DNA from: an uncultured Bacteroidales bacterium | GTDB taxonomy: Bacteria > Bacteroidota > Bacteroidia > Bacteroidales > P3 | Reading direction: 5' to 3' | NCBI GenBank assembly: GCA_900319865.1 | Contig: ONQD01000031.1 | Span: 1 to 33,076, forward strand | DNA length: 33,076 nucleotides | Notes under the pieces: generated by a model | The model's database searches: none | What the model was told of the DNA's origin: nothing | Seen by the model: only the letters and a program-made list of their open reading frames with translations | Shown here: positions 1,865-29,259 of the stretch, in pieces | How positions within the stretch are numbered: position 1 is the stretch's first letter | Layout: every line of letters begins with the position of its first letter | Position numbers and translations under genes: made by a program

Positions 1865-4162
1865 ATGAAAAGCCTCTCATTATTTAGCAAATTCATTGTC
1901 TTGGCCACCTTGTTGTGCGTTGGCGCAGGCTCCCTCCGGGCCCAGAGCGATGAGGACGAAAACAAAACCCTCTCGCCCTATTTTGTTGTCATAAGCCAAA
2001 ACCCCGAGACCGACCAACTACCCTTGAAAGAGACCACTGCACAGGTCACCGTTTCCGGCTCCATAGCCGACGTAACCATACGGCAGGTCTATGTCAACAG
2101 CGGCAAGAACCCGCTCGAAGCCATCTACACCTTCCCCATGTCCACCCGTGCCGCCGTCTACGCCATGCAGATGACCATCGGCAACCGCGTCATCCGAGCC
2201 CAGATTGAGGAGAAGCAGAAAGCCCGTGCCGACTACGAGAAAGCCAAGCAAGAGGGCAAACGCGCCTCCCTGCTGGAGCAGAGCCGACCCAATGTCTTTA
2301 CCATGAATGTATCCAACATCATGGTGGGCGACACCATTGTGGTAGAGCTCCGCTACACCGAGCTCCTTGTGCCCGAAAAGGGACAATACAGCTTTGTTTA
2401 TCCCACCGTTGTCGGTCCCCGCTATTCCAATGAGTCCAAGAGCAAGGCCGGCCCCGACGATGGCTTCGTCTCCTCGCCCTACACCCATCAAGGCGTGATG
2501 CCGGCCTACAAGTTTGATTTCAACCTTACTATCAATGCGGCCGTTCCGGTCAAGAACGTCACCTGCTCCACCCATAAGATGAACATCACCGCGCCCAACC
2601 CCAAGCAGTCTGTTGTACGGCTCGACCGTTCGGAGTCCAACGGTGGCAACCGCGACGTCATCGTCAACTATTCCCTGCAGGGCAACACCATCGAATCTGG
2701 CCTCATGCTCTACGAGGGGCAGGACGAGAACTTCTTCATGCTCATGGTGCAGCCGCCCAAGCGTGTGCAGAAAGATGACATTCCTCCGCGCGAGTACATC
2801 TTCATCGTCGATGTCTCCGGCTCCATGTGGGGCTTCCCGATGGAAATTTCCAAGGAACTGATGCGCAATCTTCTCACCAATCTCAACCCTAGCGATAAAT
2901 TCAATATTGTTCTCTTCTCAAGCAATTCTGCCGTGTTCAGTCCCCATTCCGTCGATGTCTCCACGAAGAATATCGATGAAGCCATGTCCTTTATTGTAGG
3001 AGGCAACCAATGGAGCGGCACCGAAGTCCTCGATGCCCTCAACACCGCCTATGCCCTCCCCAGACCCGACGAGGACATTTCCCGCACCATGGTCATCCTC
3101 ACCGATGGATATGTCACCGTCGAGAGCCGGTGCTTCGAGCTCATCCGCCAAAACAGCGGTCAGGCCAACTTCTTCGCCTTCGGCATCGGCCGCAGTGTCA
3201 ACCGCTGGCTTATCGAGGGCATGGCCTTTGCGGGCAACGGCGAGCCCATGATTGTCACCAAGCAGAACGAAGCTGCTGCCCAGGCCGAACGTTTCCGCCA
3301 GTACATCAACACGCCCGTCCTCACCCGTATCAAGTTTAATCCCGGTAGTTTCCAGGCTTACGACATCGAGCCAGCCTCTGTGCCCGACATGATGGCCGAG
3401 CGCCCCATTCTCATCTTCGGAAAATACAAGGGCAAACCCCAAGGCACCGTATCCCTCACCGGCAAGGTGGGCCGTAAACCCTTCAAGCAGTCCTACAACC
3501 TCTCCAACCTCAAGGCCGACCCGGCCAACTCCGCCCTGCGCTACCTCTGGGCACGCGAGCGCATCAAATATCTCTCCTATCTGGATAATAACCAACCCCC
3601 CACCGCCAAGCAGATTCTCGAGTTGGGTTTGAAATACAACCTTATGACGCAATACACCTCCTTTGTCGCCATCGATGAGGAGATAGTTAACAAAGACGGC
3701 AAGCAAACCACCGTCAAGCAACCCATTCCCATGCCCGAGGGAGTCTCCGACTATGCCGTCGGCCACAGTGCACCAACCCTCTCGGCTACATCCAACAAAT
3801 TAAGAGCAGTTGAGATAGTGGAAGAAGAGGAGGTAGAAGAAGAAATCTTTATGGTTGTAGAGGAAGACCCCGAATTCCCGGGAGGAATAGACTCGCTCTA
3901 CGCCTTTATCCGTCGCAACCTTCACTATCCGGAAGAGGCTTGGAACAACAAGATTGAAGGCACCGTGTATGTCACTTTCAGCATCGAAAAGGATGGCAGC
4001 ATTTCTAATGTCAAATTGCTTCGTGACATCGGCGGCGGTTGTGGTGCCGAGGCTGTCCGCGTGGTGAAACTGATGCCCAAATGGAAACCCGGAAAGCAAC
4101 GTGGAATACCGGTACGCACGCAGTTCAATTTGCCCATCAAGTTTAAGATGTCAGCCAATTGA
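1865..4162 (+). CDS. VIT + von Willebrand A + TonB C-terminal domain envelope protein
   Basis: A 765-residue exported protein. A signal peptide (about 1-26, ending LRAQ) leads into a VIT domain (about 38-170, with the family-typical stretches NPLEAIYTFPMSTRAAVYAM and ARADYEKAKQEGKRASLLEQ). A vWA domain (about 308-490) follows, with an intact metal-site motif DVSGSM (Asp316, Ser318, Ser320). After an acidic Glu/Val linker (about 650-668) comes a TonB C-terminal domain (about 672-762: EFPGGIDSLYAFIRRNLHYP and later GTVYVTFSIEKDGSI). The vWA part suggests metal-dependent protein binding. The TonB-C domain suggests contact with an outer-membrane receptor, but no ExbB/ExbD-anchoring N-terminal helix other than the signal peptide is seen. 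Its stop codon overlaps the next gene's start by 4 nt. The coding strand is notably C-rich. Confidence 0.9.
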   Translation: MKSLSLFSKFIVLATLLCVGAGSLRAQSDEDENKTLSPYFVVISQNPETDQLPLKETTAQVTVSGSIADVTIRQVYVNSGKNPLEAIYTFPMSTRAAVYAMQMTIGNRVIRAQIEEKQKARADYEKAKQEGKRASLLEQSRPNVFTMNVSNIMVGDTIVVELRYTELLVPEKGQYSFVYPTVVGPRYSNESKSKAGPDDGFVSSPYTHQGVMPAYKFDFNLTINAAVPVKNVTCSTHKMNITAPNPKQSVVRLDRSESNGGNRDVIVNYSLQGNTIESGLMLYEGQDENFFMLMVQPPKRVQKDDIPPREYIFIVDVSGSMWGFPMEISKELMRNLLTNLNPSDKFNIVLFSSNSAVFSPHSVDVSTKNIDEAMSFIVGGNQWSGTEVLDALNTAYALPRPDEDISRTMVILTDGYVTVESRCFELIRQNSGQANFFAFGIGRSVNRWLIEGMAFAGNGEPMIVTKQNEAAAQAERFRQYINTPVLTRIKFNPGSFQAYDIEPASVPDMMAERPILIFGKYKGKPQGTVSLTGKVGRKPFKQSYNLSNLKADPANSALRYLWARERIKYLSYLDNNQPPTAKQILELGLKYNLMTQYTSFVAIDEEIVNKDGKQTTVKQPIPMPEGVSDYAVGHSAPTLSATSNKLRAVEIVEEEEVEEEIFMVVEEDPEFPGGIDSLYAFIRRNLHYPEEAWNNKIEGTVYVTFSIEKDGSISNVKLLRDIGGGCGAEAVRVVKLMPKWKPGKQRGIPVRTQFNLPIKFKMSAN

Positions 4163-6579: not shown

Positions 6580-7980
6580 ATGCAAATCAAACGCACCATC
6601 GCCCTATGTCTCCTGTTGTTGACGGCACATGCCGCCGCAGCACAGTTTGACTGCACCTATCGCGACATCATCACCGTCTATTCCACCAACGGCGACTACT
6701 GCGCCCGTGCCACCCCCTACTACAATTTCGACCTCTCCCCCTACGGCAAGACAGAGGTCTTCGATGCCCGCACAAACCAGCTGCTCTACACCATTTCCGA
6801 ATGTCTCTCCAAAGGGTTCCTTTTCCTCAGCAACGACGGCACTTCGCTGCTGCACCTTGTCAACTTGGAATACAAAAGTTACGAAGAAGCCTTCTCCCAC
6901 GTCTTGACGCTTTACCATAAAGGCTCAAAAGCCAAACAGGTGTCGCTGCAAGAACTGACCTCCTGCGACGGCTGCGAGGAGGTATCCAGCCTCTTCTTCC
7001 GCATAAAAGACACCGTTGTGTATGAAGAGGGTCGTCTGAAGAGAAAATATAACTACTCCGCCACCCAGTGCGAACAGGCGCTGCACAAACGTCCGGCTTG
7101 CATCATCGGCGACACCGTGCTGCTCTGCACTGCCAACCGCCTCCTGCTAAAAATATTCCTCCCTACAGGTGACATCACTTCCCAGCCGTTCGACACCAAC
7201 TGCTGCGCCCTCATGAGTCAAACCCCGTCACCCCGCATCGACACCGTGAAGTTCAGCTGCCCCAGAGGATATGTGCGGGTGGATGGGTACGACAGCGGCG
7301 AAGAAGCCTTGGCCAAGAAGTTGGGAATGGTGCCCCAAGGCGATACATGGTATCCTCGCTACAAATATTACTATGTCAACATGCTCCTGCGGATTGACCG
7401 TCAGGGCAAGGCAACGATAATGCGGATGAACAACCGCGACTCACTTCCCGAGGAGCGGCTGCGCAAGGTGGTCGCCGACATGACCTTCTACGCCGACAAT
7501 TTCCCCGAGGGTGTGGACTACTGGTATCAAAAACTCTACGGCTCCATGCGCAAGCGCAACCCCTTCGTCGCCCGACGTGAAGGGAAGATAGCACAAGCCC
7601 AACGGCAAGCTGCCTACCAACGCCGTCTTGTGGCCGACAGCATCGACGGCATCTATATCCCCCGCAACCTCGAAGAGAGTTTCCACTTCCTCGACACCAT
7701 GCTCCACGCCGAGACCATCAGCCTCATCCGCTCACTCCCCGACAGGAAGGCGATGAGTGAGTTCCACTTCGTCCTTGGCATGTGGCTGCGCAACAACTGG
7801 GGCTTTTGGGGCGGCTCGCGCCTCCAGCGGTACTTCATCCAGCGCGGGGTAGAGCACCCCGACAACATGTCCGGCATCTTGCTGGAATACTACTACGACT
7901 ACCTCCACGGCAACCACCAAGGCTGGCAGGCATTCGACAAAACCCTAGTCGCCCCATCGTCCGATTCCTCACCCCATTGA
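6580..7980 (+). CDS. Exported protein of unknown function with DUF6794-like C-terminal domain
   Basis: A 466-residue protein with a clear signal peptide (MQIKRTIALCLLLLTAHAAAAQ). The central part is rich in beta strands and cysteines (CDGCEE, NCCALM, SCPRG) and has no recognised fold. The last 110 residues match the short alpha-helical pattern I associate with DUF6794: IPRNLEESFHFLDTMLHAE, then FVLGMWLRNNWGFWGGSRLQRYF and HPDNMSGILLEYYYDYL. The function of that domain is unknown. The gene lies only 14 nt after the barrel protein's stop, so the two are probably cotranscribed. It is the last gene before the composition switch at 8.2 kb. Confidence 0.7.
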   Translation: MQIKRTIALCLLLLTAHAAAAQFDCTYRDIITVYSTNGDYCARATPYYNFDLSPYGKTEVFDARTNQLLYTISECLSKGFLFLSNDGTSLLHLVNLEYKSYEEAFSHVLTLYHKGSKAKQVSLQELTSCDGCEEVSSLFFRIKDTVVYEEGRLKRKYNYSATQCEQALHKRPACIIGDTVLLCTANRLLLKIFLPTGDITSQPFDTNCCALMSQTPSPRIDTVKFSCPRGYVRVDGYDSGEEALAKKLGMVPQGDTWYPRYKYYYVNMLLRIDRQGKATIMRMNNRDSLPEERLRKVVADMTFYADNFPEGVDYWYQKLYGSMRKRNPFVARREGKIAQAQRQAAYQRRLVADSIDGIYIPRNLEESFHFLDTMLHAETISLIRSLPDRKAMSEFHFVLGMWLRNNWGFWGGSRLQRYFIQRGVEHPDNMSGILLEYYYDYLHGNHQGWQAFDKTLVAPSSDSSPH

Positions 7981-8414
7981 CGAAACGATAATACCCCTAA
8001 TAAGCGGAAATGCCATCTGAGCCTTCCCCGCTTGCGCTATTCGCACTCCTCACCCCTTGTGCCTCCTTTTCTGAAACCTTCGCTTCCCAACCGGCATCCC
8101 GTCCGTTCCCGTTCCGTTTCCCGTCCCCGTCATATCCAACTTTGCTCGCCTTCCACCCTCAAAACATCATATAATGAAATCTTTTTCACCTTAGCGGTGA
8201 AGAAAAGCTTGCTAGGAGCTAACTAAGAGCTGAAGAGTAAAGGGAGCTGGAAGGAATGCTGGGATGCAATGGATAGAACAGGAATAGAAGATGTGGCTGG
8301 GGGAGAGGGGCGGGGGCAGACGGTCGGGGTGGACAATAAAGAAGCGGAAATGACGTTTTAGATGATGTGCGACGATGCGAGTGGGAGAGGAGGGGGGCTG
8401 GAGCGAGGGAGGAG
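7981..8414. other. Non-coding strand-composition switch region with hairpin and 11-nt direct repeats
   Basis: There is no credible gene here. From 8016 to about 8160 the + strand is strongly pyrimidine-rich (C and T); from 8207 to about 8420 it is strongly purine-rich (G and A). At the switch an imperfect inverted repeat, TTTTTCACC (8182-8190) and GGTGAAGAA (8196-8204), forms a 9-bp hairpin (one G-T pair) with loop TTAGC. The sequence AAGCGGAAATG occurs at both 8002-8012 and 8342-8352, bracketing the switch. The ORF reading rightwards from 8032 is low-complexity and is rejected. Confidence 0.6.
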
Positions 8415-9221
8415 ATGTATCACGATATGAAAGATGAATGTATGAGCGATAGCGACGACCTGTATGTTAATTGGAATCCGTGGCATGGATGCACCAAGAT
8501 TAGTCCGGGGTGCAGGTATTGCTATGTTTATAGGCAGGATGAGATGTACGGCAGCGAGATAGGGAGCGATTTGGCGAGGCGGACGGCCAACTACAATCTG
8601 CCGGTGAAGCGTGGCCGGAACAAAGAGTATAAGATACCGTCGGGAAGGTTGGTTTTCACCTGTTTCACCTCCGATTTCCTGCTTCAGGATGCCGACCCGT
8701 GGCGTCAGGAGTGTTGGGAGATGATGCGGATGAGGCAGGATTTGCGGTTTTATTTCTTCACAAAGAGGATAGACCGCTTTATGGAGTGCATCCCTTCCGA
8801 CTGGGGCGATGGATACGACAACGTATTGGTGGGTTGCACGGTGGAGAATCAGCCGATGGCCGATTACAGGTTGCCTATCTTCCTCCGGCTGCCGATAAAG
8901 CACAAGTCTATCATTGCCGCTCCGCTGCTGGGTGAGATTCGGCTGTCGGAGTATTTGGACGAAACAATTGAGGAGGTGAGTGTGGGCGGCGAGTCGGGAC
9001 GTTACGCGCGGCCGTGTAATTATGACTGGGTGCTGGAAATGCGCCGCCAATGTGTGGAGAAAGGGGTGCCCTTCCGTTTTCACCAGACGGGGGCTAGAAT
9101 TGTGAAGGATGGTCGACTGTATTATGTGCCCCGCCGGTATCAGCACAGTCAGGCACACAAGGCAAATATAGATTACCGTATTGGCAGCCTGGGCGAGCCT
9201 GAGACTGCCCGATGGGAGTAG
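8415..9221 (+). CDS. DUF5131 family protein (phage Gp37/Gp68-like, Fe-S-type Cys motif)
   Basis: About 268 residues. The hallmark is WNPWHGCTKISPGCRYCY near the N-terminus, giving Cys-x6-Cys-x2-Cys. This is typical of DUF5131 proteins, which are radical-SAM-like in appearance though the spacing differs from the classical Cys-x3-Cys-x2-Cys. Further family signatures are RLVFTCFTSDFLLQDAD, FYFFTKRIDRF, VLVGCTVENQ and the GGESGRYARPCNYDWV segment. The frame is open from a GTG at 8367, but the ATG at 8415 is preceded by GGGAGGAG and leaves the motif about 20 residues in. The reaction is unknown. It often travels with phage or accessory DNA, and here it directly follows the composition switch. Confidence 0.85.
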   Translation: MYHDMKDECMSDSDDLYVNWNPWHGCTKISPGCRYCYVYRQDEMYGSEIGSDLARRTANYNLPVKRGRNKEYKIPSGRLVFTCFTSDFLLQDADPWRQECWEMMRMRQDLRFYFFTKRIDRFMECIPSDWGDGYDNVLVGCTVENQPMADYRLPIFLRLPIKHKSIIAAPLLGEIRLSEYLDETIEEVSVGGESGRYARPCNYDWVLEMRRQCVEKGVPFRFHQTGARIVKDGRLYYVPRRYQHSQAHKANIDYRIGSLGEPETARWE

Positions 9222-9437
9222 GCCATTGCGGACGGGAGGGGAGTAATGCGACAGGGACCGAAAGAAACAGATGGATAAGTGGTTTCTGTTGACGGGGAGG
9301 AAAGAGGTTGTGCGACAGGGGCGTGGATTCGCATTGAGCGGTGATTGATAGTGGGTTTGCCAAGCATGGGACGGGGATAGGGGTTTGACGAAAAGATGTT
9401 TTTTTATATAAAAACTGTTCATGTCAGTTTTTTTTAG

Positions 9438-9445
9438 TATTTTTG
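9438..9445 (+). promoter_or_regulatory. -7 box placed 4 nt before the pqqD-like start codon
   Basis: TATTTTTG is a full TAnnTTTG match, ending only four bases before the ATG at 9450. Normal spacing would put transcription start at or next to the ATG, giving a leaderless or nearly leaderless message. The preceding 25 nt are A/T-rich, with no clear -33 TTG. Confidence 0.55.
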
Positions 9446-9449
9446 CAGC

Positions 9450-9722
9450 ATGAAAATAAATCCGATTTATAAGGTCCGTAAGATTGCGGGCGAGAATATC
9501 ATCCTTTTGCAAGGAAAGACTGGCGGAGACATGACCCGCGTTGTTGCATTCAATGAATCAGCTCTTTTGATGTGGGATTCACTGCAAGGCAAAGATTTTA
9601 CAGTAGACGATGCCGTGGCTGTTCTTTTGGACAACTACGATGTGGAAGAGGCAACGGCCCGCGCCGATGCCGGGAAATGGGTGGAGACAATACGTGAGAA
9701 CGGATTGCTGCTGCCCGAATAA
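9450..9722 (+). CDS. PqqD family peptide-binding protein
   Basis: A 90-residue protein fitting the PqqD fold (RiPP recognition element): an N-terminal beta hairpin (NPIYKVRKIAGENIILLQG), VVAFNESALLMWDSLQGKDFTVDD and a C-terminal winged helix with ARADAGKWVETIRENGLL. In RiPP pathways such domains bind the leader peptide and present it to a modifying enzyme. It is the first gene of a three-gene cassette, 11 nt upstream of the kinase-like ATPase. No precursor peptide ORF was recognised in the 228-nt gap upstream. The start is supported by the family's normal length and N-terminal pattern. Confidence 0.88.
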   Translation: MKINPIYKVRKIAGENIILLQGKTGGDMTRVVAFNESALLMWDSLQGKDFTVDDAVAVLLDNYDVEEATARADAGKWVETIRENGLLLPE

Positions 9723-9733
9723 AAACGTAGGTT

Positions 9734-10603
9734 ATGGCTGACAGTAAAACGTATTTGATTGCCAACCACCGGTTCCGTGTGGTGGGCGACCATGAGGTGG
9801 AGTTGCTCCGCACTATGGCAGGATTCCCCGTGTTTGAGGTGGAGGACGGCGATGCGGAGTGGCAGGTGGTTTTTGGGTGCGGGATAGAGCGTCCGGCCCA
9901 GTGGGAAGACCTGTACGACTTCTCGTTTGAGGAGGTGGTGATGGACAGCATGTTTGCCAAAACCGACGAGGCATACTACTACATCATGGAGCCTCACGAC
10001 AAGACTGTGCCCCCGATGCTGATGCGCTATGCCGGCGGGAATACGGTTGAGGCCACCTACTGCCACGATGCCATGATGCTTCGCTTTGCGTTGTGGATGG
10101 CTTTGAGCATGATGTCGGCTTCGAGCAAGATGCTGCTGGTGCATTCCTCCACGATAGTGCATCAGGGAAAGGCTGTGCTTTTCCTGGGCGAGTCGGGCAC
10201 GGGGAAGAGTACCCACACCCGTCTCTGGCTGAAGTATATTCCCGACTCGCATCTGCTGAACGACGACTGCCCAGTGCTGGCCGTTGAGAATGGTGAGGCT
10301 GTGGTGTACGGTTCGCCGTGGAGCGGCAAGACCCATTGCTACCATCAGCTTCGTTTCCCGTTGGCGGCAGCAGTGCGTTTGTCGCAGGCCCCCTACAACA
10401 AGATACGCAAGCAGAGTGTGGTGGAGTCGTTCTCTTCGCTGCACCCGTCGTGTCCGCCCGCTTTGGCACAGGACGAAAGGTATCAGGATTATATGCTCGA
10501 CATGCTTTCGGACGTGCTGTCCACGGTGCCGGTGTTCCATCTGGAATGCCTTCCCGATGAGGCGGCTGCATGGACCAGCCACGATGCCATATTCAAGAGT
10601 TAG
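9734..10603 (+). CDS. HPr kinase-like ATP-binding protein
   Basis: A 289-residue protein with a P-loop GESGTGKST (residues 152-160) inside the HPrK-type context VHSSTIVHQGKAVLFLGESG, followed by LLNDDCPVLAV (Asp177/178, the acidic pair after the P-loop). The C-terminal helical part (DYMLDMLSDVLSTVPVFHLEC) is typical of 'HprK-related' or PEP-carboxykinase-like proteins found with PqqD and asparagine-synthetase-like genes. HPr itself is not expected to be the substrate. In lasso-peptide and related loci such kinases act on the peptide or on unknown targets. The N-terminal 125 residues are a poorly conserved beta domain. Gaps of 11 nt to pqqD and 43 nt to the peptidase support one operon. Confidence 0.82.
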   Translation: MADSKTYLIANHRFRVVGDHEVELLRTMAGFPVFEVEDGDAEWQVVFGCGIERPAQWEDLYDFSFEEVVMDSMFAKTDEAYYYIMEPHDKTVPPMLMRYAGGNTVEATYCHDAMMLRFALWMALSMMSASSKMLLVHSSTIVHQGKAVLFLGESGTGKSTHTRLWLKYIPDSHLLNDDCPVLAVENGEAVVYGSPWSGKTHCYHQLRFPLAAAVRLSQAPYNKIRKQSVVESFSSLHPSCPPALAQDERYQDYMLDMLSDVLSTVPVFHLECLPDEAAAWTSHDAIFKS

Positions 10604-10646
10604 TGTATCGACTTCGATTGTGTTGTAACCAATAATTCACCTACTT

Positions 10647-11480
10647 GTGGAAACAGTACAGATTTCATTACCCAATAGCCCCGACAATCCTTTGCTGATT
10701 GAGATGTGCGAGCGGCTGGAGGCCGGCATGACGGTGACAATGCTGTTTGGCGGCCGCAGTATGCTGCCCATGATTAACGGCGAGGGTGACAAGATTACCT
10801 TGCGGCCGCTGGAGAAAGAGGAGGCCTGTGTGCCGGGTGAGGTGTATTTGTTTAAGTACTGCAACCATTTTGTTATCCATAGGCTGATGCGGATAGAGGG
10901 TGGAGTGCATGTGTTCCGTGGCGACAACTGCGTTAATTTTGAACGGGTGGGTCGCGAGAATGTGTTGGCTAAGCTGATGACTGTGATACAGCCCAACGGC
11001 AATGAGATAGATTGTGAGGGAGAGTGGTGGCATAAACGGTCGAAACAAGTGTTGCGCCGCAAAAGGTTGCGCACCGCTGTTGTGAGGATGCTGAGCCCCA
11101 AGGCACGCAATGTGTGGTCGGTGCTGTATTTTATTTTGCTTGCAGTATTGATGTGGGCTCCGTTGAACGGGTTGGGTATACCCTTGAACCGTTTCATCTT
11201 CGGATTGAGGCTGGACCACCTGCTCCATGCATCGGTATTTCTGTTGTGTCCGCTGTTTCTGGTTGACTGGATGCGGTGGAAGAAATGGGGGATATTGGTG
11301 GTGGCGCTGCTGATAGGGTTGTTTACTGAATATGTGCAATACTTGTTGCCCTACCGGGGGTTCGATATCAATGACCTAGTGGGCAATTGTATTGGGAATA
11401 CGTTGGGATGGCTGGCCCTGTTGCCCATTCTGGTGTGGCATGCAAGACGGGTGAGCCGTAGACAAAGACCAATGGCATAG
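10647..11480 (+). CDS. S24/S26 signal-peptidase-like domain fused to a VanZ-like membrane domain
   Basis: A 277-residue protein starting at a GTG (10647); no better start lies before the conserved region. Residues about 15-125 are an S24/S26 peptidase: GGRSMLPMI carries the nucleophile (Ser38) and HFVIHRLMRI supplies His78. That is the Ser-His arrangement of SipW/ER-type signal peptidases rather than Ser-Lys. FRGDNC is the later family box. After a basic linker (KRSKQVLRRKRLR) the C-terminal half has about four membrane helices with VanZ marks: APLNGLG, RLDHLLHASVF, FTEYVQYLLPYRGFDINDLVGNCIGN. In the cassette it could cleave or release a PqqD-delivered peptide at the membrane. The fusion is unusual, and both halves look intact. 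Confidence 0.8.
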   Translation: METVQISLPNSPDNPLLIEMCERLEAGMTVTMLFGGRSMLPMINGEGDKITLRPLEKEEACVPGEVYLFKYCNHFVIHRLMRIEGGVHVFRGDNCVNFERVGRENVLAKLMTVIQPNGNEIDCEGEWWHKRSKQVLRRKRLRTAVVRMLSPKARNVWSVLYFILLAVLMWAPLNGLGIPLNRFIFGLRLDHLLHASVFLLCPLFLVDWMRWKKWGILVVALLIGLFTEYVQYLLPYRGFDINDLVGNCIGNTLGWLALLPILVWHARRVSRRQRPMA

Positions 11481-19819: not shown

Positions 19820-22672
19820 TTATTTTATGACAATCATTTTATCTGTGAGCGTGTTACCATCGGAATGCAACACTATCATATAGACCCCTAAACGCAAATG
19901 GGTGGTAAAATATTGTGTGGAGCATTCGTTAGATGCAATTTTTATTTTGTCTACCAGTTGTCCTTGGGAATTGTATAGTTCAAGACTCTTTGGTCTATAG
20001 CTTGTTGCGGTATGAATAATCACCTGCCCGTTGTTGGGATTGGGTTGAAGTCGAAGGCTTGGAACTCCCGTTTCGGGTTGCCCTATATGGAGTGTGCTGT
20101 CGTATTCGGGACTTCCTGAGGGCTGTTGCCACGTAGAGAATGGCAGCCGAAGATCGTCCAATCGGGCACAGTCGTCGTGCTGGCTTATCGAGATGTCTTT
20201 TTGGTAAATCCATTGCAATCGGTGTCTGCCTTGACTAACAAAACGGGAATACCGACGCCACCCAAGGTCGCCGCTCCAGTATCCGCACTTGCGGTCGTCG
20301 ATATAGAAATATAGCCAGTCGCTGTTCTCGCTCGAAACGTTGTAGTAGAACGAAATACTGTCGCCGGTGAGTACATCTATGTCCAGCGTCAACACCGATT
20401 TCTGGCTGTCATTCACATTCCCCGAACGTATGCAGTACTGCCCACTGTGGGGGTTGGTGTGGTCAATGGTCCAAGGGTATAGCGGAGCATGTTGCCAAGG
20501 TAGTATACTGAAATCGTTTGTTTCAAATTCTTCGGTGTTTTTCCACGCAGTGATCCATCCCGAGTAGTCTTGTTTCCAATGACCGGCATGAGGTGTGATG
20601 ATGTAGTTTAGATATTGCAGATTCTCCTCGGTGTGGAAAGGAATTTGTATTGGCGTATTAGGTACATCCAGATGGTTGGTGATGGTGGTGGAAACCCCGT
20701 TGAAGGAGGCACAAACCGAGTCTGCTATATCTGAGAGCGTGATGGCCATTCGGTAGTCCCTGTTTGGCGTTATGGCGTTAACTGCGTGGCCATTCAGGTC
20801 AACCACTTCCATGTGTATCAGCCTTGGCCGATGGTCGGGCAGACTGACCTGAAGGTGCATTCTGCTGTATTCTGTTTCGTTTTGGTCCGAAAGGGCTAGG
20901 CTGGCCGAAAGCATGGGTTGCTGACCTTGGATGTAGTTGTTCAGTGTCCATGAAATCAATGTATCGTCTGCGGGGGCAAGGCTATGAATTGTGGCAGAAA
21001 GGGAGTTTGGTAGTTCTGCCCCGATATGGATATCTTCGTTGTCTTGAGTCAGTATTATCTTGTGGTTGGTCACCTCGCCCGAACCGACATTCCTCAGCCG
21101 CAAGACCAACTCGTTTCCGCTGATGGTTCGGGATACTACCGCGCAGCGGGGCTCATGAGCTGGGACCACTGTTATTGTCTGTTCGTTGTAAAGGGCATTG
21201 ACTCGGGTGGCGGTGATGGTGATATTGCTGAGGTCAAGGGCGTTGTCAAACAAGAGTGTTGCGCTTCCGTTGCTGTCCGCAAGAGTGGTGGCCAGCAATA
21301 AAGAGTCCTTTGTGGCACTTACACGTGCATAAGGTGTACAGCCAATAGTTAGTGTGGTTGTGCCTGCTTCCACGCTGTCGGGCACAGATAGCATCAGGCT
21401 GTCGGCTTCACCTATGAATGGTGTCATGCTTGGGTCGCCAAGCAGATTATAAATTTCCCAATAAAAAGCATCGAAAGGCGAACCGGCCATGGTCACCGCC
21501 ATGCATCCGTCGCGCATCATCGACCCAAGGGTTATGTTTTCTCTATGCCGGTAATCTGCTGAGTGCTTTTGTGCGAAAAGGGTGTCGAAAGCACCGGGCA
21601 GGTTTGGGTTATAAACAGGATATTCCACTATGGGATATTGTGCCCCCACTGCCCAATAATAGTCTTCGGTCCAGAGGGTTTCGTTGGTGGCACCAATTAC
21701 TCCTGCAGCCCCTCCGGTGGGGTGGCGCAGCAACTCTTCGCCAAAACAAGTACCGTTAAAGGCATTCGACTTGCAGCAGTTGTTTACATACAGGGTAGGG
21801 GTGGCGTTCTCAAGGGTGTCGATGGTTTGCATTGTTACCAAGGGGTTGTCCCAGCCCCGTTGAGTGCAGTGGGCAGTATAGTTAACCAACGAGTTGGAGT
21901 TGTTCAGTGCACATATTATACTGTCAAATATCTCGATTGGCACCTCGTTGTGGAAACACTTAATCTCCATTTCGGGCAGCAATTGTTCTGCCGCCATCGA
22001 AAGATAGTTTACCTGAGCGTTGGTGGTGAGAGGGGCAATCGATTGTCGTTCGTTTCCTGCAACCAGCAGAAGGTGGTTGTTGTCTTTGGCCCAATTGCCT
22101 TGTTCGTAGGCTATAATTTTAGCGATTACCGTCAGTAGCTCTGCGCTGTCGGTTACCGAGAGCCGCCCCACTTGCACCTCCGGTATGTAGTCTCCCGTAT
22201 ATTCGCCATAATAGAGGTCGGTGGCGTGGCTGCTGAGCCCCGAAGGTGTATTGGTGCCATAAAAAGTGGGAATTCGGTCTACATCTCCAACCAGTATTAC
22301 ATATCGCTGCGCAGGGTTCAGTGTAGATGCGTTGATGTATCGGTTTTTCAGCAGTGCTCTTATCGAGTCTTTGTTGTGGCAGTCGGTGCTGAATGTTTCC
22401 ACCCTAAACCCCTGTTGTTGTTTCCAGTCTCTCAATGAGGCGATATAAGGTCTCAAGTCGGACGTTGTAACAATCAATAGTGTACCCCTTGTGGGGTCAT
22501 CAGATTGTTGGCGTTTGGTAGAGAGTATATTGGGCGTATAGGCAGGAACGTGAGTGGGGGGTAGAACTGGGTTTCCCGATTTTGTATACACGGTTTGCCC
22601 GGTTGACACTGTTGCGAATAATAGAGCAGCAACCAGCAATGGCAATCTTTTTGAGAGTTTGGATATCTTCAT
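19820..22672 (-). CDS. Gingipain-like C25 cysteine peptidase with T9SS sorting domain
   Basis: A 950-residue secreted protein. The signal peptide is about 1-25. The C25 catalytic domain spans about 62-420: TLLIVTTSDLRPYIASLRDWKQQQGF, RYVILVGDVDRIP, then His268 in LVNYTAHCTQRGWDNP and Cys299/Cys300 in YVNNCCKSNAFNG. These correspond to the gingipain His-Cys dyad, with the usual GHG replaced by AHC. Ig-like segments follow, then a MAM/jelly-roll-like region (about 720-860). The last 75 residues are a type A T9SS sorting domain (LRLQPNPNNGQVIIH ... LGVYMIVLHSDGNTLTDKMIVIK). Export and surface attachment via T9SS are inferred. No separate long propeptide is apparent: only about 35 residues separate signal and catalytic domain. 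First gene of the operon leading to yidD. Confidence 0.9.
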   Translation of the reverse strand: MKISKLSKRLPLLVAALLFATVSTGQTVYTKSGNPVLPPTHVPAYTPNILSTKRQQSDDPTRGTLLIVTTSDLRPYIASLRDWKQQQGFRVETFSTDCHNKDSIRALLKNRYINASTLNPAQRYVILVGDVDRIPTFYGTNTPSGLSSHATDLYYGEYTGDYIPEVQVGRLSVTDSAELLTVIAKIIAYEQGNWAKDNNHLLLVAGNERQSIAPLTTNAQVNYLSMAAEQLLPEMEIKCFHNEVPIEIFDSIICALNNSNSLVNYTAHCTQRGWDNPLVTMQTIDTLENATPTLYVNNCCKSNAFNGTCFGEELLRHPTGGAAGVIGATNETLWTEDYYWAVGAQYPIVEYPVYNPNLPGAFDTLFAQKHSADYRHRENITLGSMMRDGCMAVTMAGSPFDAFYWEIYNLLGDPSMTPFIGEADSLMLSVPDSVEAGTTTLTIGCTPYARVSATKDSLLLATTLADSNGSATLLFDNALDLSNITITATRVNALYNEQTITVVPAHEPRCAVVSRTISGNELVLRLRNVGSGEVTNHKIILTQDNEDIHIGAELPNSLSATIHSLAPADDTLISWTLNNYIQGQQPMLSASLALSDQNETEYSRMHLQVSLPDHRPRLIHMEVVDLNGHAVNAITPNRDYRMAITLSDIADSVCASFNGVSTTITNHLDVPNTPIQIPFHTEENLQYLNYIITPHAGHWKQDYSGWITAWKNTEEFETNDFSILPWQHAPLYPWTIDHTNPHSGQYCIRSGNVNDSQKSVLTLDIDVLTGDSISFYYNVSSENSDWLYFYIDDRKCGYWSGDLGWRRYSRFVSQGRHRLQWIYQKDISISQHDDCARLDDLRLPFSTWQQPSGSPEYDSTLHIGQPETGVPSLRLQPNPNNGQVIIHTATSYRPKSLELYNSQGQLVDKIKIASNECSTQYFTTHLRLGVYMIVLHSDGNTLTDKMIVIK

Positions 22673-22720: not shown

Positions 22721-22728
22721 TATTTTTG
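22721..22728 (+). promoter_or_regulatory. -7 box for the giant surface protein gene
   Basis: TATTTTTG, a full TAnnTTTG match after an A-rich tract. Transcription near 22735 would exclude the upstream in-frame ATG at 22726 and leave about 36 nt before the ATG at 22771. Confidence 0.65.
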
Positions 22729-22770
22729 CATTTTGAAATACTCTCGAATAAACATAAAATACATATCAAT

Positions 22771-25700
22771 ATGAAACGAAATTATCTCTTGTTATTGATG
22801 CTCGCCATGCTTTCGCCATGGCTCTCGAGATCTCAGGCGTATATTGGAGATTACGTTTTCTCATCGTTCGCCGGAACGTTCTCGTCAATTTCGACTACCG
22901 GCACTCAACTCAGTGCTTTAGAGGGAACGGATGCATCGACAACCGTTACGTTGCCGTTTGCTTTCCCGTTTGGCCGTGATACCGTTTCGCAGATTTGGGT
23001 TACCCCCTACGGCCAAATTGGAATGGGGCTTGATGACCCTGCAGATTATGGCTACGAAACCCACACCAATGATATGGACATCATTGTTCCTCTGGGGCAA
23101 TATTATTACCTTTCCTCCGAGACCGGTGGTGGCCATGTCTACTACGAGGTGCAAGGCGCCAGTCCTTACCGCTCAATGGTGATAGAATACAATCATGTCC
23201 GTCTCAACTCTTCCTCGGCTTCCAGCAACTATTACACATTTCAGGTGGTGCTTTACGAGAACGGTGATGTGGATTTCATATACGATACTTGTGTCGCCAC
23301 TCAAAGCTCCACAGCATATGTCTTTATGCGCGAACATGATGTCAACTCTGCCCTAGCAGTTACAGGCAACTGGTCGGCTCTCTCAGCAGGGCATAATGTC
23401 AACTCCATCAGCCTCAGTGGCACCAATGTTCCTACCCCAGGTTTGACTATTAATTTCACCCGGCCCATTAACAACTGCCCCCGTCCCCGCAATTTCATTT
23501 GCCGCTCGTTCACACGGCCCGACAGCGTGGTGATGGCTTGGAACTCGTCCGACATCGCTTCGGTGTGGGAGTTGCGCTACGACACTGTGGGTACTCCTGT
23601 CGACAGCATGACCAATGTCATCTCTACAATCACCGACACCTTCTATATTTGCAACAACTTGTATGCCGGTGGCAGCTATCAGGCTTACCTTCGCACCGAT
23701 TGCGGCTCTGAACAAAGTTTCTGGGAAGGTCCTATCGACATCACTCCTGGCTCCTACAATATGAAAGCCACGGGCACCGACACCATCTATGCCTGTGGTG
23801 GTATCATTTATGATAATGGTGGTGCCATGGCCAACTATACGAACAGCTGCAACTCAGAGCTCATCGTCCGTCCTTCTCATCCCGATTCTGTTGTAAGAAT
23901 CAGTGGCACCCTCAGTACTGAGAGCTGTTGCGACCATCTTTATATTTATGATGGTGTTGGCATCAGCGGCACTTTGCTCTACCAAGGCCAAGGCGTCTCA
24001 CAAACCATACCGCCAGTCCGTTCCTCCTATGGCCCTCTCACCATCCGTTTTGTCTCCGATGGCTCAGTGGTTAATAGCGGTTTCAGCCTCAATGTCTCTT
24101 GCGAACGTGCTCCTCTCTGCCGATACATCATGGGTGTAGATGTCGACAATGTTGTTGGGGCTTCGGCCTTGTTGTCGTGGACTCTTTCGGGCGGTTTGAC
24201 CAATCCAGCCTACTTCCAAGTCACCGTTATCAATATGGACGACTCTACTCAAACACCTTTCATCGATACCACCAGCAACCTCTACTATCTCATCAGCGGC
24301 CTCCAGCCAGGCACTCATTATAAGGCTATCGCCAACAGCTATTGCGATAACGCTATCGTACTGGGCGATTCCATTGAATTCACTACCCATTGCCTGGTGG
24401 GTGGCACCACCAATCCTTCGGGTACTTCCCTCACCAGTGTCACTGGCGTTCCGGTCTGTTCTGGTTGGGGCAATACCTTCTGCCAAAGCATATTCACTGT
24501 ATCCGATCTTCTCGCCATGGGTCTCACCCCTGGCCCCATCAATGGTATTACCTATACATGGAGCTCCGCAGGCTCCTATAACAAGGACCTAGTCATTTTC
24601 TTGGGCACCACCGCCAACAGCACATTCTCCAGCTTCTCACCCCTCACGGGCAGCATGACCCAGGTGTATAGCGGTCAGCGTACCACATCTGATGTCGGTA
24701 CCATTGAGTACTATTTCGATACTCCCTTTGTCTGGGACGGCACAAGCAACATCGTTCTTTCTTCTTTTGTCAACCAACCCGCCGGCGTTACCCACTCTAG
24801 CTCGGGTTTCTATGGCTACAGCTCCAACTGTGGTGTCACCCGTTCTATCTATGGTTATAAAGATAATGTGGCTTACACTATTTCCAATCTTACCACCAAC
24901 AGCAGCTCTTCCACCAGCTCCTACCGTCCTAACGTCAGCTTCATCAAACCTTGCGACACCAATGCCACCTGCGCTGTTCCCAATCTTATTGTCACCGACC
25001 TCAATAGCGACAGCGTAAGTGTTATCTGGGCTCCCGGCTACACAGAGACATCATGGTCTCTCTCCTATAAGGCTCAAACCGCCACTTCATGGACCACGGT
25101 TGAAACTGCTTTCACCGACCGTGCCTATACCTTCACCGGCCTCCTGCCCATGACTACTTATCTCCTTCGCGTCGCTCCCGACTGCGGTGGCGATTCCATC
25201 TTTGCACAAGTAGAGGTAACCACCCCCTGTGTTCCTCTCACCGAACTTCCCTTCACCGAAAACTTCGAGAATTTCGTGGCTTCCAGTACCACTGGCTCGC
25301 CCATCACCAACTGCTGGGCCCGTGGCACCAGTTATTCCTACAATTCCTATCCTTATCTCTCCACCTCCTATGCCTATAGCGGCACTCACTCCATCTATTT
25401 CTACGGCACCACAACCTACTACTCCTACCTTTGTTTGCCTGCCATGGCTGCCTCTATCGACAGTCTCCAAGTCAGTTTTGCACTTCGCAAAACTTCTGCC
25501 AACTATTCTGTCCAGGTGGGTGTGATGACCGACCCCAACGACTTCTCCACTTTCTCCACTGTGGCTAATGTTTCGCCTACAAATATCAATGAGTGGCAAC
25601 TCTTCGAGATTCCTCTCAGCAATTATGTGGGCAATGGCCATTTCATCGCTTTTGCCACTTCCGGCGCCACAAGCTATGTCTATCTCGACGATGTCGAGGT

Positions 25701-28700
25701 GGATTATATCCCCTCTTGCCCCCGTCCCAACAATATCACGGTCACGGGTGTCACCACCTCCAATGCCAGCATTCATTGGAATGCATCCGGCTCCAACTAT
25801 TTCATTATTGAATATGGTCCTGCCGGTTTTGAACATGGAGATGGCATCACTGTCACCAGCAGTGCCGACAGCGTAACCCTTTATGGTCTTGACCACTCCA
25901 CTCGCTACGAGTTTTATGTCCGGGGCATCTGCGGCGGCAGTGACACTTCCAACTGGTCGTTCGTAAATGCTTTTACTACTGCTTGCGGCATTATCGACCA
26001 ATTGCCCTATTCCCAGAATTTCTCTGGCTGGGGTGTAGGCACCTCGGCCCGTCCCGCATGCTGGGCCTGCGGCGGCTACAGCTCTTACCCCTATATCCTC
26101 GCTGTCAACGACAACAACGGGGTAACCATTGGCCACACGCTCTATATGTATTCTTATAGCGCCAATCAGGTCTATGCCTCCCTGCCCGAACTCGACAGCG
26201 TAAGCTATCCCGTCCACATGGTGCAGACTATCTTCCAGGCCTGGGCCAACAATACTACTTCCAACCTCTACTCCCACGATTTGGTTGTGGGCGTATGTTC
26301 TAACCAGGGAGACCTCAGCTCCTTCACCCCGGTCGACACAGTTTTCGTCACAGGCACACCGGCCATCTACGAGGTGGCTTTCGACCCGGCCATCGGTGCA
26401 GGCAAATATATCACCTTTGTCTCTTACCCCACTGCAGGCACCACCAGCTACAACACCGTCTATCTTGACAGCGTTGCGGTAGAGCTTATCCCCGATTGCC
26501 AAACCCCCAATCAGTTGACATCTGACAATGTTAGTTTCAACTCCGTCGACCTTTCTTGGAATGAACGCAACGTGGCCAATCTCTGGCAGGTGGAATATGG
26601 TCCTCATGGCTTCACCCTCGGTTCAGGCACCCGCATTAACGCTACCACCTATCCCATCACACTCAACGGCCTCACCCCCTCCACTTGCTACGATTTCTAT
26701 GTACGCAGCATTTGCAGCGCAACCGACACATCCAACTGGTCGCGCGAAGTAGGCTACTTCTGCACCATGCAGAACCCTGCCACTATCCCCTATTTCTATG
26801 ATTTCGAAACCCCGGCAGAGTGGGATAATTGGCAAACCTCCACCAACTACAGCTCGGTCAATTGGTATCGTGACACAGCTGGCGGAAACGGCACTCCTGG
26901 TTTCTATTCCCCCGGCAGATATTCCATGTTTATCTCGGCCGACACTGGCCGCACCTGCAGCACCGATATGTCAGCCGTTGTCAATGTCTCCGCCTATCGC
27001 GACATCGACTTTGGGCCCATCGACTCCTCGTTCAACCTCACCTTCCGTGCCCGTTCGGGTGGCACCTCCGGCAACGCCTACGATGCCCTTATGGTATTCC
27101 TGGTCGACCCGACCATACCGGTGGTCTCCTCCAATGCTAACCTCACCTCGCCTTGGGGCATGGTCAATGATATGAGACCTCTCTCCATGATTCGTCTCAC
27201 CAACTGGACCACCGTTAGTGTCAATCTCGACTCTGTGGAGGGAGTTCAGCGCTTGGCTTTCTTCTGGTTCAACCAGGCTACCGGCACCGAATCCTTCATA
27301 TCCACCCCCGCCTCTGTCGACGACATCAGCATCGACTATATCGGCTGCCCCACTCCCGCCAATCTCCGTGCCTCCAATGTCACTATGGCATCGGCCCAAT
27401 TGGGTTGGTATGGTCCTGCCGATGGCGACTATCGTGTAACCGTACGCAACAATCATGGTCTTGTTGTGGTTAGCGAGTTAGTCCATTCCAACACACTCAG
27501 CCTCACAGGTCTCAACCCGGCCAGCAACTATACGGTCTATGTGCGTCGCATTTGCAGCAGCACTGACAGCTCCGCTCTCTCGCCCGCCTTCACTTTCACC
27601 ACTGCCATTTGCAACAACAGCTTCGGCGACACCGTTGCCACCACTCCCTCCTCGGTCACTTCCTACTACATCCCCGTCAACAACTACTATGGCTACTCCT
27701 ACTCCCAGCAGATTGTGCTGGCCAGCGAACTGCACGGTAGCGGTGAAATATCGGCCATCGATTTCAAATATGCTTATACCTCTGCTAACACAGCCAAGAG
27801 CAATTGCACCATCTATGTTGGCCATACCACCAAGTCTCAGTTCTCGTCCAACACCGATTTTGTCGACCCCGCAGACATGCAAATGGTCTATGCCGGCACC
27901 CTCAGCTCAACCAATGGCTGGAACCACTTTGTGTTCAACAACCCCTTCCCCTACGACGGTGTCCGCAACCTAGTCATTGCAGTGGACGACAATAACGGCA
28001 ATTACAACGGCACATCTTACACCTACTATGTCGATCAGACTTCGGCACCCATGTCCCTTTCTATATACAGCGACTCGCAGAACCCCAATCCCCGTTCGCT
28101 CGATGACTTGCTCAACTTCTCGGGTACTCCATCCACTTTCGCCTACCGCAACCAGGTGGTCTTGGAATTCTGTCCCAACAACCCCTGTTCCACTCCCATA
28201 CTGCGCAACCCCATCGTGCGCTCCACCAATGCAACTCTCCGCTGGCGCAACACCAGCTCACACTATCAGGTAAGCTATCGTCGCGCATCCACTACCAGTT
28301 GGCTTGCCGATATGGTTGACGTGGAAGACACGTTCTTTGTCATTCCCAGCCTCTATCCCATGACCGACTATGTGTACCGCGTGCGTCAGTTCTGCGACTC
28401 AGTCTCCGTCTCCAACTGGGTGGAGGGTACTTTCAACTCCGCTGATGTACCCTGCCTCTCGCCCATGGGTCTGCATGTCACCAGTGTCACAAACAACAAG
28501 GTGTCCTTGGCTTGGCAGCCCGAAGAGAACAACCTCACCTACACGCTCCATGTGTTCAACAGCTATTTCGATAACTACGCCAACACCATCATAGCCCGCG
28601 GCTCTGTCTCCGGACTCGATGCCGCAATGACCTACTACGCTACCGTCCAGGCCCACTGCCAGGGATTTGAAGAACCCAGCGAATGGAGCGACACCATCAT

Positions 28701-29259
28701 GTTCACTACCGACATCTGCCCCGATGCCACTAACCTTACGGCCAGCAACATCCAGGGCAACAGCGTGGTTCTCGACTGGACCGATGGTGGCCGTGCCGAG
28801 AAATGGGAAATCCAGTATGGCCCCATGGGATTCATCCAGGGTTCTGGTCTCTCGGTCATTGCCGAAAGCCATCCCTACACCCTCACTGATTTGGTCGGCG
28901 AGACCGAGTACGACATATACGTGCGTGGCATCTGCGGCACCAACTTCTACAGCGAACACTGGTCCAACTGTGTCACTATCACCACTCCCTATAGTGGCAT
29001 CTCCATGTCCAACGACGATACCCGCGTGCGTCTGCATCCCAACCCCACCAGCTCCGATGTCGAGCTCATCCTGCCCGCCAATGTGGGTGCTTTCAAGGTT
29101 GAGGTGATCGATGTTGCCGGCCGTGTCCAGCTCTCAGGCTCTTACCCCAGTGGTTCCGAAAACATCATCCTTCCCACCTCCGGACTTGAGCAGGGTGCCT
29201 ACTTCGTCCGAGTGGTTGGCGACCGCATCAATACTGTCAAAAAACTGATAATTAAGTAA
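22771..29259 (+). CDS. Giant multidomain T9SS surface protein (CUB, FN3, jelly-roll modules)
   Basis: A 2162-residue protein with signal peptide MKRNYLLLLMLAMLSPWLSRSQA. In order: an N-terminal beta domain (about 25-230, FAFPFGRDTVSQIWVTPYG); an FN3 (about 232-325); a CUB domain (about 339-446, DHLYIYDGVGISG and the closing SDGSVVNSGFSLNVSC); FN3; a ~190-residue beta module (about 541-727); FN3; a jelly-roll domain (LPFTENFENF to VYLDDVEVDYI); FN3, jelly-roll, FN3, jelly-roll, FN3; a second copy of the ~190-residue module (about 1612-1805); three FN3 domains; and a type A T9SS sorting domain (about 2086-2162, VRLHPNPTSSDVEL ... GAYFVRVVGD). FN3 domains share WxVEYGPxGF and YDFYVRxIC patterns. 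It is probably a surface adhesin or matrix protein. The coding strand is very C-rich with Thr, Ser and Asn codons. Confidence 0.88.
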   Translation: MKRNYLLLLMLAMLSPWLSRSQAYIGDYVFSSFAGTFSSISTTGTQLSALEGTDASTTVTLPFAFPFGRDTVSQIWVTPYGQIGMGLDDPADYGYETHTNDMDIIVPLGQYYYLSSETGGGHVYYEVQGASPYRSMVIEYNHVRLNSSSASSNYYTFQVVLYENGDVDFIYDTCVATQSSTAYVFMREHDVNSALAVTGNWSALSAGHNVNSISLSGTNVPTPGLTINFTRPINNCPRPRNFICRSFTRPDSVVMAWNSSDIASVWELRYDTVGTPVDSMTNVISTITDTFYICNNLYAGGSYQAYLRTDCGSEQSFWEGPIDITPGSYNMKATGTDTIYACGGIIYDNGGAMANYTNSCNSELIVRPSHPDSVVRISGTLSTESCCDHLYIYDGVGISGTLLYQGQGVSQTIPPVRSSYGPLTIRFVSDGSVVNSGFSLNVSCERAPLCRYIMGVDVDNVVGASALLSWTLSGGLTNPAYFQVTVINMDDSTQTPFIDTTSNLYYLISGLQPGTHYKAIANSYCDNAIVLGDSIEFTTHCLVGGTTNPSGTSLTSVTGVPVCSGWGNTFCQSIFTVSDLLAMGLTPGPINGITYTWSSAGSYNKDLVIFLGTTANSTFSSFSPLTGSMTQVYSGQRTTSDVGTIEYYFDTPFVWDGTSNIVLSSFVNQPAGVTHSSSGFYGYSSNCGVTRSIYGYKDNVAYTISNLTTNSSSSTSSYRPNVSFIKPCDTNATCAVPNLIVTDLNSDSVSVIWAPGYTETSWSLSYKAQTATSWTTVETAFTDRAYTFTGLLPMTTYLLRVAPDCGGDSIFAQVEVTTPCVPLTELPFTENFENFVASSTTGSPITNCWARGTSYSYNSYPYLSTSYAYSGTHSIYFYGTTTYYSYLCLPAMAASIDSLQVSFALRKTSANYSVQVGVMTDPNDFSTFSTVANVSPTNINEWQLFEIPLSNYVGNGHFIAFATSGATSYVYLDDVEVDYIPSCPRPNNITVTGVTTSNASIHWNASGSNYFIIEYGPAGFEHGDGITVTSSADSVTLYGLDHSTRYEFYVRGICGGSDTSNWSFVNAFTTACGIIDQLPYSQNFSGWGVGTSARPACWACGGYSSYPYILAVNDNNGVTIGHTLYMYSYSANQVYASLPELDSVSYPVHMVQTIFQAWANNTTSNLYSHDLVVGVCSNQGDLSSFTPVDTVFVTGTPAIYEVAFDPAIGAGKYITFVSYPTAGTTSYNTVYLDSVAVELIPDCQTPNQLTSDNVSFNSVDLSWNERNVANLWQVEYGPHGFTLGSGTRINATTYPITLNGLTPSTCYDFYVRSICSATDTSNWSREVGYFCTMQNPATIPYFYDFETPAEWDNWQTSTNYSSVNWYRDTAGGNGTPGFYSPGRYSMFISADTGRTCSTDMSAVVNVSAYRDIDFGPIDSSFNLTFRARSGGTSGNAYDALMVFLVDPTIPVVSSNANLTSPWGMVNDMRPLSMIRLTNWTTVSVNLDSVEGVQRLAFFWFNQATGTESFISTPASVDDISIDYIGCPTPANLRASNVTMASAQLGWYGPADGDYRVTVRNNHGLVVVSELVHSNTLSLTGLNPASNYTVYVRRICSSTDSSALSPAFTFTTAICNNSFGDTVATTPSSVTSYYIPVNNYYGYSYSQQIVLASELHGSGEISAIDFKYAYTSANTAKSNCTIYVGHTTKSQFSSNTDFVDPADMQMVYAGTLSSTNGWNHFVFNNPFPYDGVRNLVIAVDDNNGNYNGTSYTYYVDQTSAPMSLSIYSDSQNPNPRSLDDLLNFSGTPSTFAYRNQVVLEFCPNNPCSTPILRNPIVRSTNATLRWRNTSSHYQVSYRRASTTSWLADMVDVEDTFFVIPSLYPMTDYVYRVRQFCDSVSVSNWVEGTFNSADVPCLSPMGLHVTSVTNNKVSLAWQPEENNLTYTLHVFNSYFDNYANTIIARGSVSGLDAAMTYYATVQAHCQGFEEPSEWSDTIMFTTDICPDATNLTASNIQGNSVVLDWTDGGRAEKWEIQYGPMGFIQGSGLSVIAESHPYTLTDLVGETEYDIYVRGICGTNFYSEHWSNCVTITTPYSGISMSNDDTRVRLHPNPTSSDVELILPANVGAFKVEVIDVAGRVQLSGSYPSGSENIILPTSGLEQGAYFVRVVGDRINTVKKLIIK

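Follow-up and report, generated by a model that had tools for sequence, protein, structure and literature searches.

Lasso peptides provide the closest described parallels to the genes examined here. According to the available parts of two reports (PMC8498205, PMC7533575), lasso peptide systems use HprK homologues that phosphorylate, nucleotidyltransferases that add hexose, and PqqD-like B1 proteins that bind leaders, and the paeninodin and pseudomycoidin clusters group a PqqD-like B1 protein, an HprK-homologue kinase, a nucleotidyltransferase and a transporter around the precursor. Here, we analyzed a related three-gene cassette in 33,076 nucleotides of DNA from an uncultured Bacteroidales bacterium (contig ONQD01000031.1 of assembly GCA_900319865.1, positions 1 to 33,076), hereafter the window. 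The cassette encodes a PqqD-family protein, a kinase of the HprK/PEPCK fold and an S26-type peptidase fused to a VanZ domain, and all three genes were confirmed in the window. Sequence comparisons suggest, with a probability of about 0.57, that it is the core of a maturation system resembling those for ribosomally synthesized and post-translationally modified peptides (RiPPs), with substrates encoded in trans.

9450..9722, forward strand, stop included: first cassette gene, PqqD-family protein (PF05402), predicted leader-binding RiPP recognition element (RRE)
9734..10603, forward strand, stop included: kinase of the HprK/PEPCK superfamily, recognized by its superfamily fold and P-loop
10647..11480, forward strand, stop included: S26-type peptidase-VanZ fusion, 277 aa
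10647..11012, forward strand: S26/S24-fold peptidase domain, residues about 1-122, with Ser38 and His78; predicted cytosolic
11019..11117, forward strand: basic linker, residues 125-157, preceding membrane helix 1; net charge averaging +8.9 in 26 rows
11118..11435, forward strand: VanZ membrane domain, residues about 158-263; PF04892, 38.4 bits, cut-off 30.1

The PqqD protein scored 48.9 bits against PF05402 (E 8.2e-13, cut-off 23.4) and is the only one above that cut-off in its genome. Its alignment holds 25 rows, and a PDB profile search matched it to TfuB1 (E 2.2e-7), which we take to be a lasso B1 protein. In the kinase, the P-loop GESGTGKSTH and the motifs NDDxP and YGSPWSGK are invariant or nearly so over 24 rows, and a structure model (predicted local distance difference test score, pLDDT, of 95) matched ATP-PEPCK over the full length and also HprK/P. 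It is not an HPr kinase proper, scoring 11.1 bits against PF07475 (cut-off 33.3) and 12.2 bits against TIGR00679 (cut-off 240). HPr-rel-A systems, which reportedly have a PqqD partner and to our knowledge contain no S26 fusion, have the broad kinase superfamily in common with the cassette; however, the kinase scored 18.3 bits against the TIGR04352 (HPr-rel-A) equivalog model, for which the cut-off is 200. Curated models thus exceed their cut-offs for PqqD and VanZ and fall below them for the kinase and peptidase, which fold models recognize.

The accessory set of lasso systems, an HprK-homologue kinase and a nucleotidyltransferase, is present, and this set is accessory rather than defining for lasso peptides. 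The cassette differs from the paeninodin and pseudomycoidin clusters in its S26-type protease, and in this genome the candidate precursors are multicopy, lie on other contigs and are paired with lipoprotein genes. A possible further difference is that neither the Asn-synthetase-like lasso cyclase nor the transglutaminase-like B2 protease was among the listed families (25 of 88) common to at least two of 111 neighboring proteins, a result that covers the neighbors of 20 loci, leaves room for single occurrences and was not extended by a search of the window's own genome. We rate the system as a variant of RRE-dependent peptide maturation, not a separate category.

No published description of this gene set was found in a limited literature search; if our reading is right, it represents an unreported form of peptide maturation in gut Bacteroidales. 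The accessible parts of a Bacteroidales RiPP survey (PMC10352776) do not mention nucleotidyltransferases, S24, signal peptidases or phosphorylation, and those of two RRE papers (PMC7470986, PMC12710340) do not mention HPr or kinases. One mention of S24, in the part of PMC12257519 that was available, proved to be figure numbering, not a peptidase. If true, the reading would assign a function that can be tested both to a numerous group of very small acidic peptides of gut Bacteroidales and to those PqqD/HprK/S26 gene sets that have no known maturase. The likely substrates are dispersed and each one examined in this genome is tied to a surface-type lipoprotein gene, and therefore cluster-based mining would miss the system.

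Candidate substrate peptides and their association with the kinase

Candidate precursors came from cassettes outside the genus. Of 295 genomes of the order searched with the kinase alignment, 62 gave a match, which was strong (E <= 1e-30) in 18, the window's own genome included. We examined 29 outside-genus loci, 20 of them over 6.5-17 kb and the rest over about 1.5 kb per side. Within about 1.5 kb of the kinase, a stand-alone S26 gene was found at 24 of the 29 loci and a PqqD gene at 19, and no VanZ gene was found at any of them. Among 111 neighboring proteins at the 20 larger loci, ABC_tran (14) and NTP_transf_5 (PF14907; 9) recurred; no radical SAM family was common to at least two of these proteins among the families listed (25 of 88).

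A filter for small open reading frames (ORFs) with a YxxP motif, combined with inspection by eye, revealed a multicopy small-peptide family with a YxxP...ExGFxxS leader and an acidic core. Of the 29 outside loci, 7 have candidates of this one family no more than 4 kb from the cassette: within it or directly abutting it at L123, L126, L101 and L109, and 2-4 kb away at L111, L115 and L120. Eight further rows from the filter were put aside by eye as chance. A model built from the seven outside peptides identified three ORFs in the window's own genome (E 0.0019, 0.027 and 0.043), and the model extended by these three gave matches in 107 of 120 genomes of the genus at E <= 0.5, with up to 24 per genome. 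The window's genome itself has 11 matches at E <= 0.1.

Across 23 leaders, YxxP...E keeps its Tyr, Pro and Glu without exception, and ExGFxxS keeps its Gly and Ser in at least 90%. The cores of 42 peptides, a set that contains near-copies, are all net acidic; one contains Cys and 40 have an aromatic residue within the last three positions. A, G or V occupies position -3 of the assumed Ser junction in 27 of the 42. The junction Ser is present in 42/42, which carries no weight because it was picked as the nearest Ser within a six-residue span. The family thus combines a conserved leader with a variable core, as precursors of RRE-dependent RiPPs do, and would be a candidate substrate.

The sequence-only reading had pointed out that the cassette lacks a precursor gene, and this held: no small ATG-initiated ORF with the leader motif is present among those listed between about 7900 and 12400. 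Its suggestion of a peptide process with a substrate encoded elsewhere gained support from a multicopy family that largely tracks the kinase and sits on other contigs of this genome. Across the 120 genomes of the genus, 107 have the kinase (one weak partial match, in G010, counted); 103 have kinase and peptides, 9 have neither, 4 lack only the kinase and 4 lack only the peptides (p 4e-8). For the 62 high-quality genomes the corresponding numbers are 55, 6, 0 and 1 (p 1e-7).

At the level of the order we made eight comparisons, with two thresholds each for kinase and peptides and with the eight genomes from which peptides for the first models came either kept or removed. With these source genomes removed, a strong kinase match and peptides at E <= 0.01, the numbers of genomes with both, peptide only, kinase only and neither were 4/5/9/269 (one-sided p 3e-4). 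At a peptide threshold of E <= 0.1 they were 7/14/6/260 with strong kinase matches (p 5e-6) and 9/12/45/221 with all kinase matches (p 0.007). In an rpoB tree, G033, which has the kinase and ten peptide matches, is sister to the kinase-less clade G024, G027, G092 and G110, which has no peptide matches.

Ten of the 11 peptide loci of the window's genome were fetched; they lie on eight contigs, none of them the window's. By eye and by script, all ten peptide genes sit 12-61 nt upstream, on the same strand, of a gene with a lipobox-type start. Each of the ten lipoproteins is similar to at least one other (BLAST E <= 1e-3). By eye we had suspected that they were fimbrillins, an identity we do not claim because no fimbrillin family was matched in Pfam, NCBIfam or a PDB sequence search; weak sub-threshold matches to bacteriocin-like and to pore-forming families appeared in one of seven each. 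Of the 120 genomes of the genus, 116 carry the lipoprotein family, including all 13 that lack the kinase, indicating that the peptide, and not the lipoprotein, tracks the cassette; these counts may be inflated because some matches span just the C-terminal half of the model. The genome also encodes an NTP_transf_5 protein (E 2.8e-27) beside one of the peptide-lipoprotein pairs.

The S26-VanZ fusion, its conservation and its natural loss

The structure model of the fusion (pLDDT of 91 for the whole model) matched signal peptidases and LexA through its N-terminal part; the fold matches listed span only the S26 part and are uninformative on VanZ. Like S26 signal peptidases (SPase I, SEC11), the domain combines this fold with a catalytic Ser accompanied by Lys or His, here Ser and His, presumably the SEC11-type pair. 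Unlike them, it has no N-terminal membrane anchor (the top mean hydropathy within residues 1-140 is 1.01), is predicted to be cytosolic rather than exoplasmic and is fused to VanZ. Mean net charges along the fusion are +8.9 before helix 1, -0.6, +2.5 and -1.0 in the loops and +3.4 in the tail, and from this charge bias and the positive-inside rule we predict that the S26 domain is cytosolic and that the VanZ motif residues face outward. Stand-alone S26 relatives had no N-terminal membrane segment by eye, among those listed, and it is this absence together with the predicted topology that leads us to read VanZ as an anchor. The VanZ domain itself is well preserved, with D190, H191, E228, Q231, R237, D240, D243 and N247 identical in 28/28 rows. 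It exceeds the PF04892 cut-off, and its ExxQ and Asp motifs resemble those of the VanZ-1 and Skillet families in the available parts of PMC12419801; however, a fusion to a signal peptidase is not described in those parts, and S26 and HPr go unmentioned in the main text as far as it was available.

A search for the fusion covered 190 genomes of the family, 120 of them from the window's genus, and returned 118 with a match: 115 of the genus and three from one other genus, in which only the S26 part was matched. Both parts occur at one place in 109 of the 120 genus genomes, VanZ alone in six and neither in five; the count of 109 takes in 13 alignments reported as two pieces, and ten of these genomes have an in-frame stop inside the reported match. 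The fusion is therefore not an accident of a single genome, a possibility that the sequence-only reading had raised against itself. None of the 394 other genomes sampled from the phylum (395 with the window's own; up to six candidates scored per genome) had a match to both domains.

We compared 45 related loci, mostly from gut metagenome assemblies by their titles and one from Candidatus Colimorpha pelethequi. The order PqqD-kinase-fusion is the same in 41, which together with the family and fold matches bears out the cassette as first described, and the PqqD and kinase genes overlap (-1 or -4 nt) in 17 of these 41. The exceptions are L076, with only PqqD and VanZ, and L069, L071 and L074, without adjoining PqqD and kinase genes. 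The trio stays together while its upstream neighbors vary, which speaks against uniform attachment to an unrelated housekeeping pathway, the other objection that had been anticipated. Linkage is not strict, since the kinase and the S26-VanZ fusion are retained on separate contigs in G036, G071 and G106 (L209-L214), with no PqqD match in the stretches fetched. At L207 (G009, near 7846-9515), a single long frame matches both kinase and S26 models, apparently a kinase-S26 fusion, and a PqqD match overlaps it in another frame. The same genome has a PqqD gene adjoining a stand-alone VanZ gene (L205) and a second kinase elsewhere (L206).

Thirteen genomes of the genus lack the kinase. Four of these (G024, G054, G092 and G110) keep the fusion with Gly at the position of Ser38 and Arg at that of His78, the VanZ motif residues being intact; five (G027, G032, G035, G038 and G084) retain VanZ alone, and in the other four (G007, G043, G087 and G123) the fusion protein found no match. 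Downstream of the decayed fusion of G024 stand GT2 and DPP4-like genes, as they do in the window, an arrangement suggesting loss of the kinase and PqqD genes at this site. These losses tie the protease residues to the kinase and the peptides and set VanZ apart, mainly in one lineage. The lineage in which the protease has decayed serves as a natural knock-out, allowing the roles of S26 and VanZ to be told apart.

A proposed pathway and its alternatives

In the pathway we propose, the PqqD protein would bind the leader of the small orphan peptides, the kinase would phosphorylate Ser/Thr in the acidic core, and the S26 domain, tethered on the cytosolic side of the membrane through its fusion to VanZ, would cut off the leader near the conserved Ser. 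The NTP_transf_5 protein, encoded elsewhere in this genome and near the cassettes of relatives, would probably tailor the phosphopeptide further. These four assignments draw on the protein families and on the lasso precedent. The product may then be exported and act together with the surface-type lipoprotein whose gene directly follows that of the peptide. VanZ would serve for anchoring, with an activity of its own that is separate and probably older. It appears to fit an anchor better than a partner enzyme because it is absent beside the outside cassettes, yet intact within the genus where the kinase, detected peptides and protease residues have been lost.

Several observations weigh against this reading. 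The peptide models derive partly from cassette-bearing genomes, and the Fisher values take no account of relatedness: in the rpoB tree, which covers 60 genomes, the high-quality genomes without the kinase group into two clades and thus give only two independent contrasts, both as predicted and unable to reach significance. The tree includes one more genome without the kinase, G087 (77% complete), and peptide matches were found in it. When all kinase matches at E <= 1e-5 are admitted to the order-level set without source genomes, at a peptide threshold of E <= 0.01, the association is weaker (5/4/49/229, p 0.014). Discordant genomes occur in both directions. G021, G031, G055 and G116 have the kinase and no detected peptide, and among them G031 is 94% complete with a full cassette. 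Peptide matches occur in the kinase-less genomes G038 (1), G043 (3), G087 (2) and G123 (21), all 72-80% complete, and, at E <= 0.01, in four genomes of the order without a kinase match, G273, G354, G426 and G479; family-like ORFs can be read in all four, of which G273 and G354 are 99% complete. At 30 peptide loci of the genus read by script, the next gene is of lipoprotein type at 16 (including L133 of the window's own genome), no ORF was found at four, and ten had another gene or none, two of these ten owing to a wrong ORF choice by the script. Outside the genus, a lipoprotein-type gene follows in 6 of 16 readable loci (G301, G395, G400, G417, G445 and G463); the script read these 16 of 23 loci, and a second reading found family-like ORFs at five of the remaining seven. 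The pairing is therefore firm in this genome, whereas elsewhere it is common without being universal. Finally, no clear orthologue of the cassette exporter was present among four ABC matches in the window's genome. The best of these, considered as the exporter, is an MsbA-like ORF adjoining what appears by eye to be a suf gene.

Alternative explanations differ in what they ask of VanZ and of the peptides. VanZ could be a working partner, a lipocone-type domain acting at the outer face of the membrane on the same product, for example by attaching the phosphopeptide to a lipid or by setting free a lipid-linked form; the fusion would then couple peptide processing to envelope chemistry. The two parts are indeed kept together in 109 of 120 genomes, the motif residues never vary in 28 rows, the peptides of this genome are paired with lipoprotein genes, and headgroup transesterification in the superfamily and serine lipidation by a sister family are proposed in the available parts of PMC12419801. 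We nonetheless consider this unlikely: VanZ does not adjoin the cassette in the 29 outside-genus loci, it persists within the genus without the kinase, detected peptides or protease residues, and the two active sites are predicted to lie on opposite faces of the membrane. For the same reasons, namely VanZ beside 0/29 outside cassettes and its survival within the genus, the joint peptide-and-envelope or glycopeptide-type process that the sequence-only reading had drawn from VanZ was not supported. Very improbable, in our judgment, is a specific form of coupling in which the kinase phosphorylates the core, the inner S26 site frees the peptide and the outer VanZ site joins it through the phosphate to a membrane or polyprenyl lipid; such a surface conjugate would be a lipid-anchored peptide displayed next to its partner lipoprotein.

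A different possibility, which we also hold to be unlikely, is that the peptides never leave the cell and act as short regulators of the lipoprotein genes downstream, with PqqD, kinase and protease as a switch by which they are read or destroyed. The position of 10/10 examined peptide genes directly upstream of a lipoprotein gene in this genome would suit such a switch, as would the lack of an identified dedicated exporter there and the nearness of the S26 fold to LexA-type domains as well as to signal peptidases. However, ABC exporters recur beside related cassettes, and precursors usually have just this make-up of conserved leader and variable acidic core. It is rather improbable that cassette and peptides are unrelated, the cassette acting on some other protein and the co-occurrence reflecting shared ancestry and model bias. 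The limit of two independent contrasts and the discordant genomes, including two 99% complete ones in which peptides are readable and the kinase is unmatched, argue for that view; the peptides within 4 kb of the cassette at 7 of 29 outside loci, an order-level association that survives removal of the source genomes, and the contrast between G033, with its ten matches, and the sister clade of four kinase-less genomes, with none, argue against it.

Surroundings of the cassette

A promoter-like element precedes the cassette.

9438..9445, forward strand: TAnnTTTG element, 12 nt before the PqqD start

We read TAnnTTTG as a promoter-type consensus. It occurs at -12 in 6 of 42 relatives as well (L032, L033, L034, L035, L046 and L055) and within 80 nt in 12 of 42, compared with 2.0 expected from shuffling. 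Were the element a promoter, its position at -12 would imply a very short 5' mRNA leader.

Directly upstream lies a gene for a DUF5131 protein (8367-9218, forward strand) with the Cys cluster CTKISPGCRYCY and a sub-threshold match to a model for radical SAM proteins of mobile pairs. We considered it as a radical SAM partner and rejected it, as tblastn matched it in 0 of 45 related loci; a conserved upstream partner of any kind was likewise rejected, since upstream neighbors vary by clade. The downstream GT2 and DPP4-like genes are mostly syntenic, yet they are separated or inverted in L046, L052 and L062, and in several other related loci they were not found; they too were discarded as partners. 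No other van-type family was present among the 17 window proteins scanned.

At outside cassettes, L110 (7788-8540) and L111 (7021-7761), from two genomes of one family, share a protein of about 250 aa encoded between PqqD and the kinase, the L111 copy of which has no Pfam match. In L120 and L121 the cassette adjoins genes resembling polysaccharide export and sugar transferase genes.

Elsewhere in the window, a gene for a VIT-VWA protein with a TonB C-terminal domain lies at 1865-4159 (forward strand). A C25 (gingipain-type) peptidase gene at 19823-22672 (reverse strand) is divergent from a gene for a 2177-aa fibronectin-type-III protein at 22726-29256 (forward strand), and both proteins terminate in a Por_Secre_tail sorting domain.

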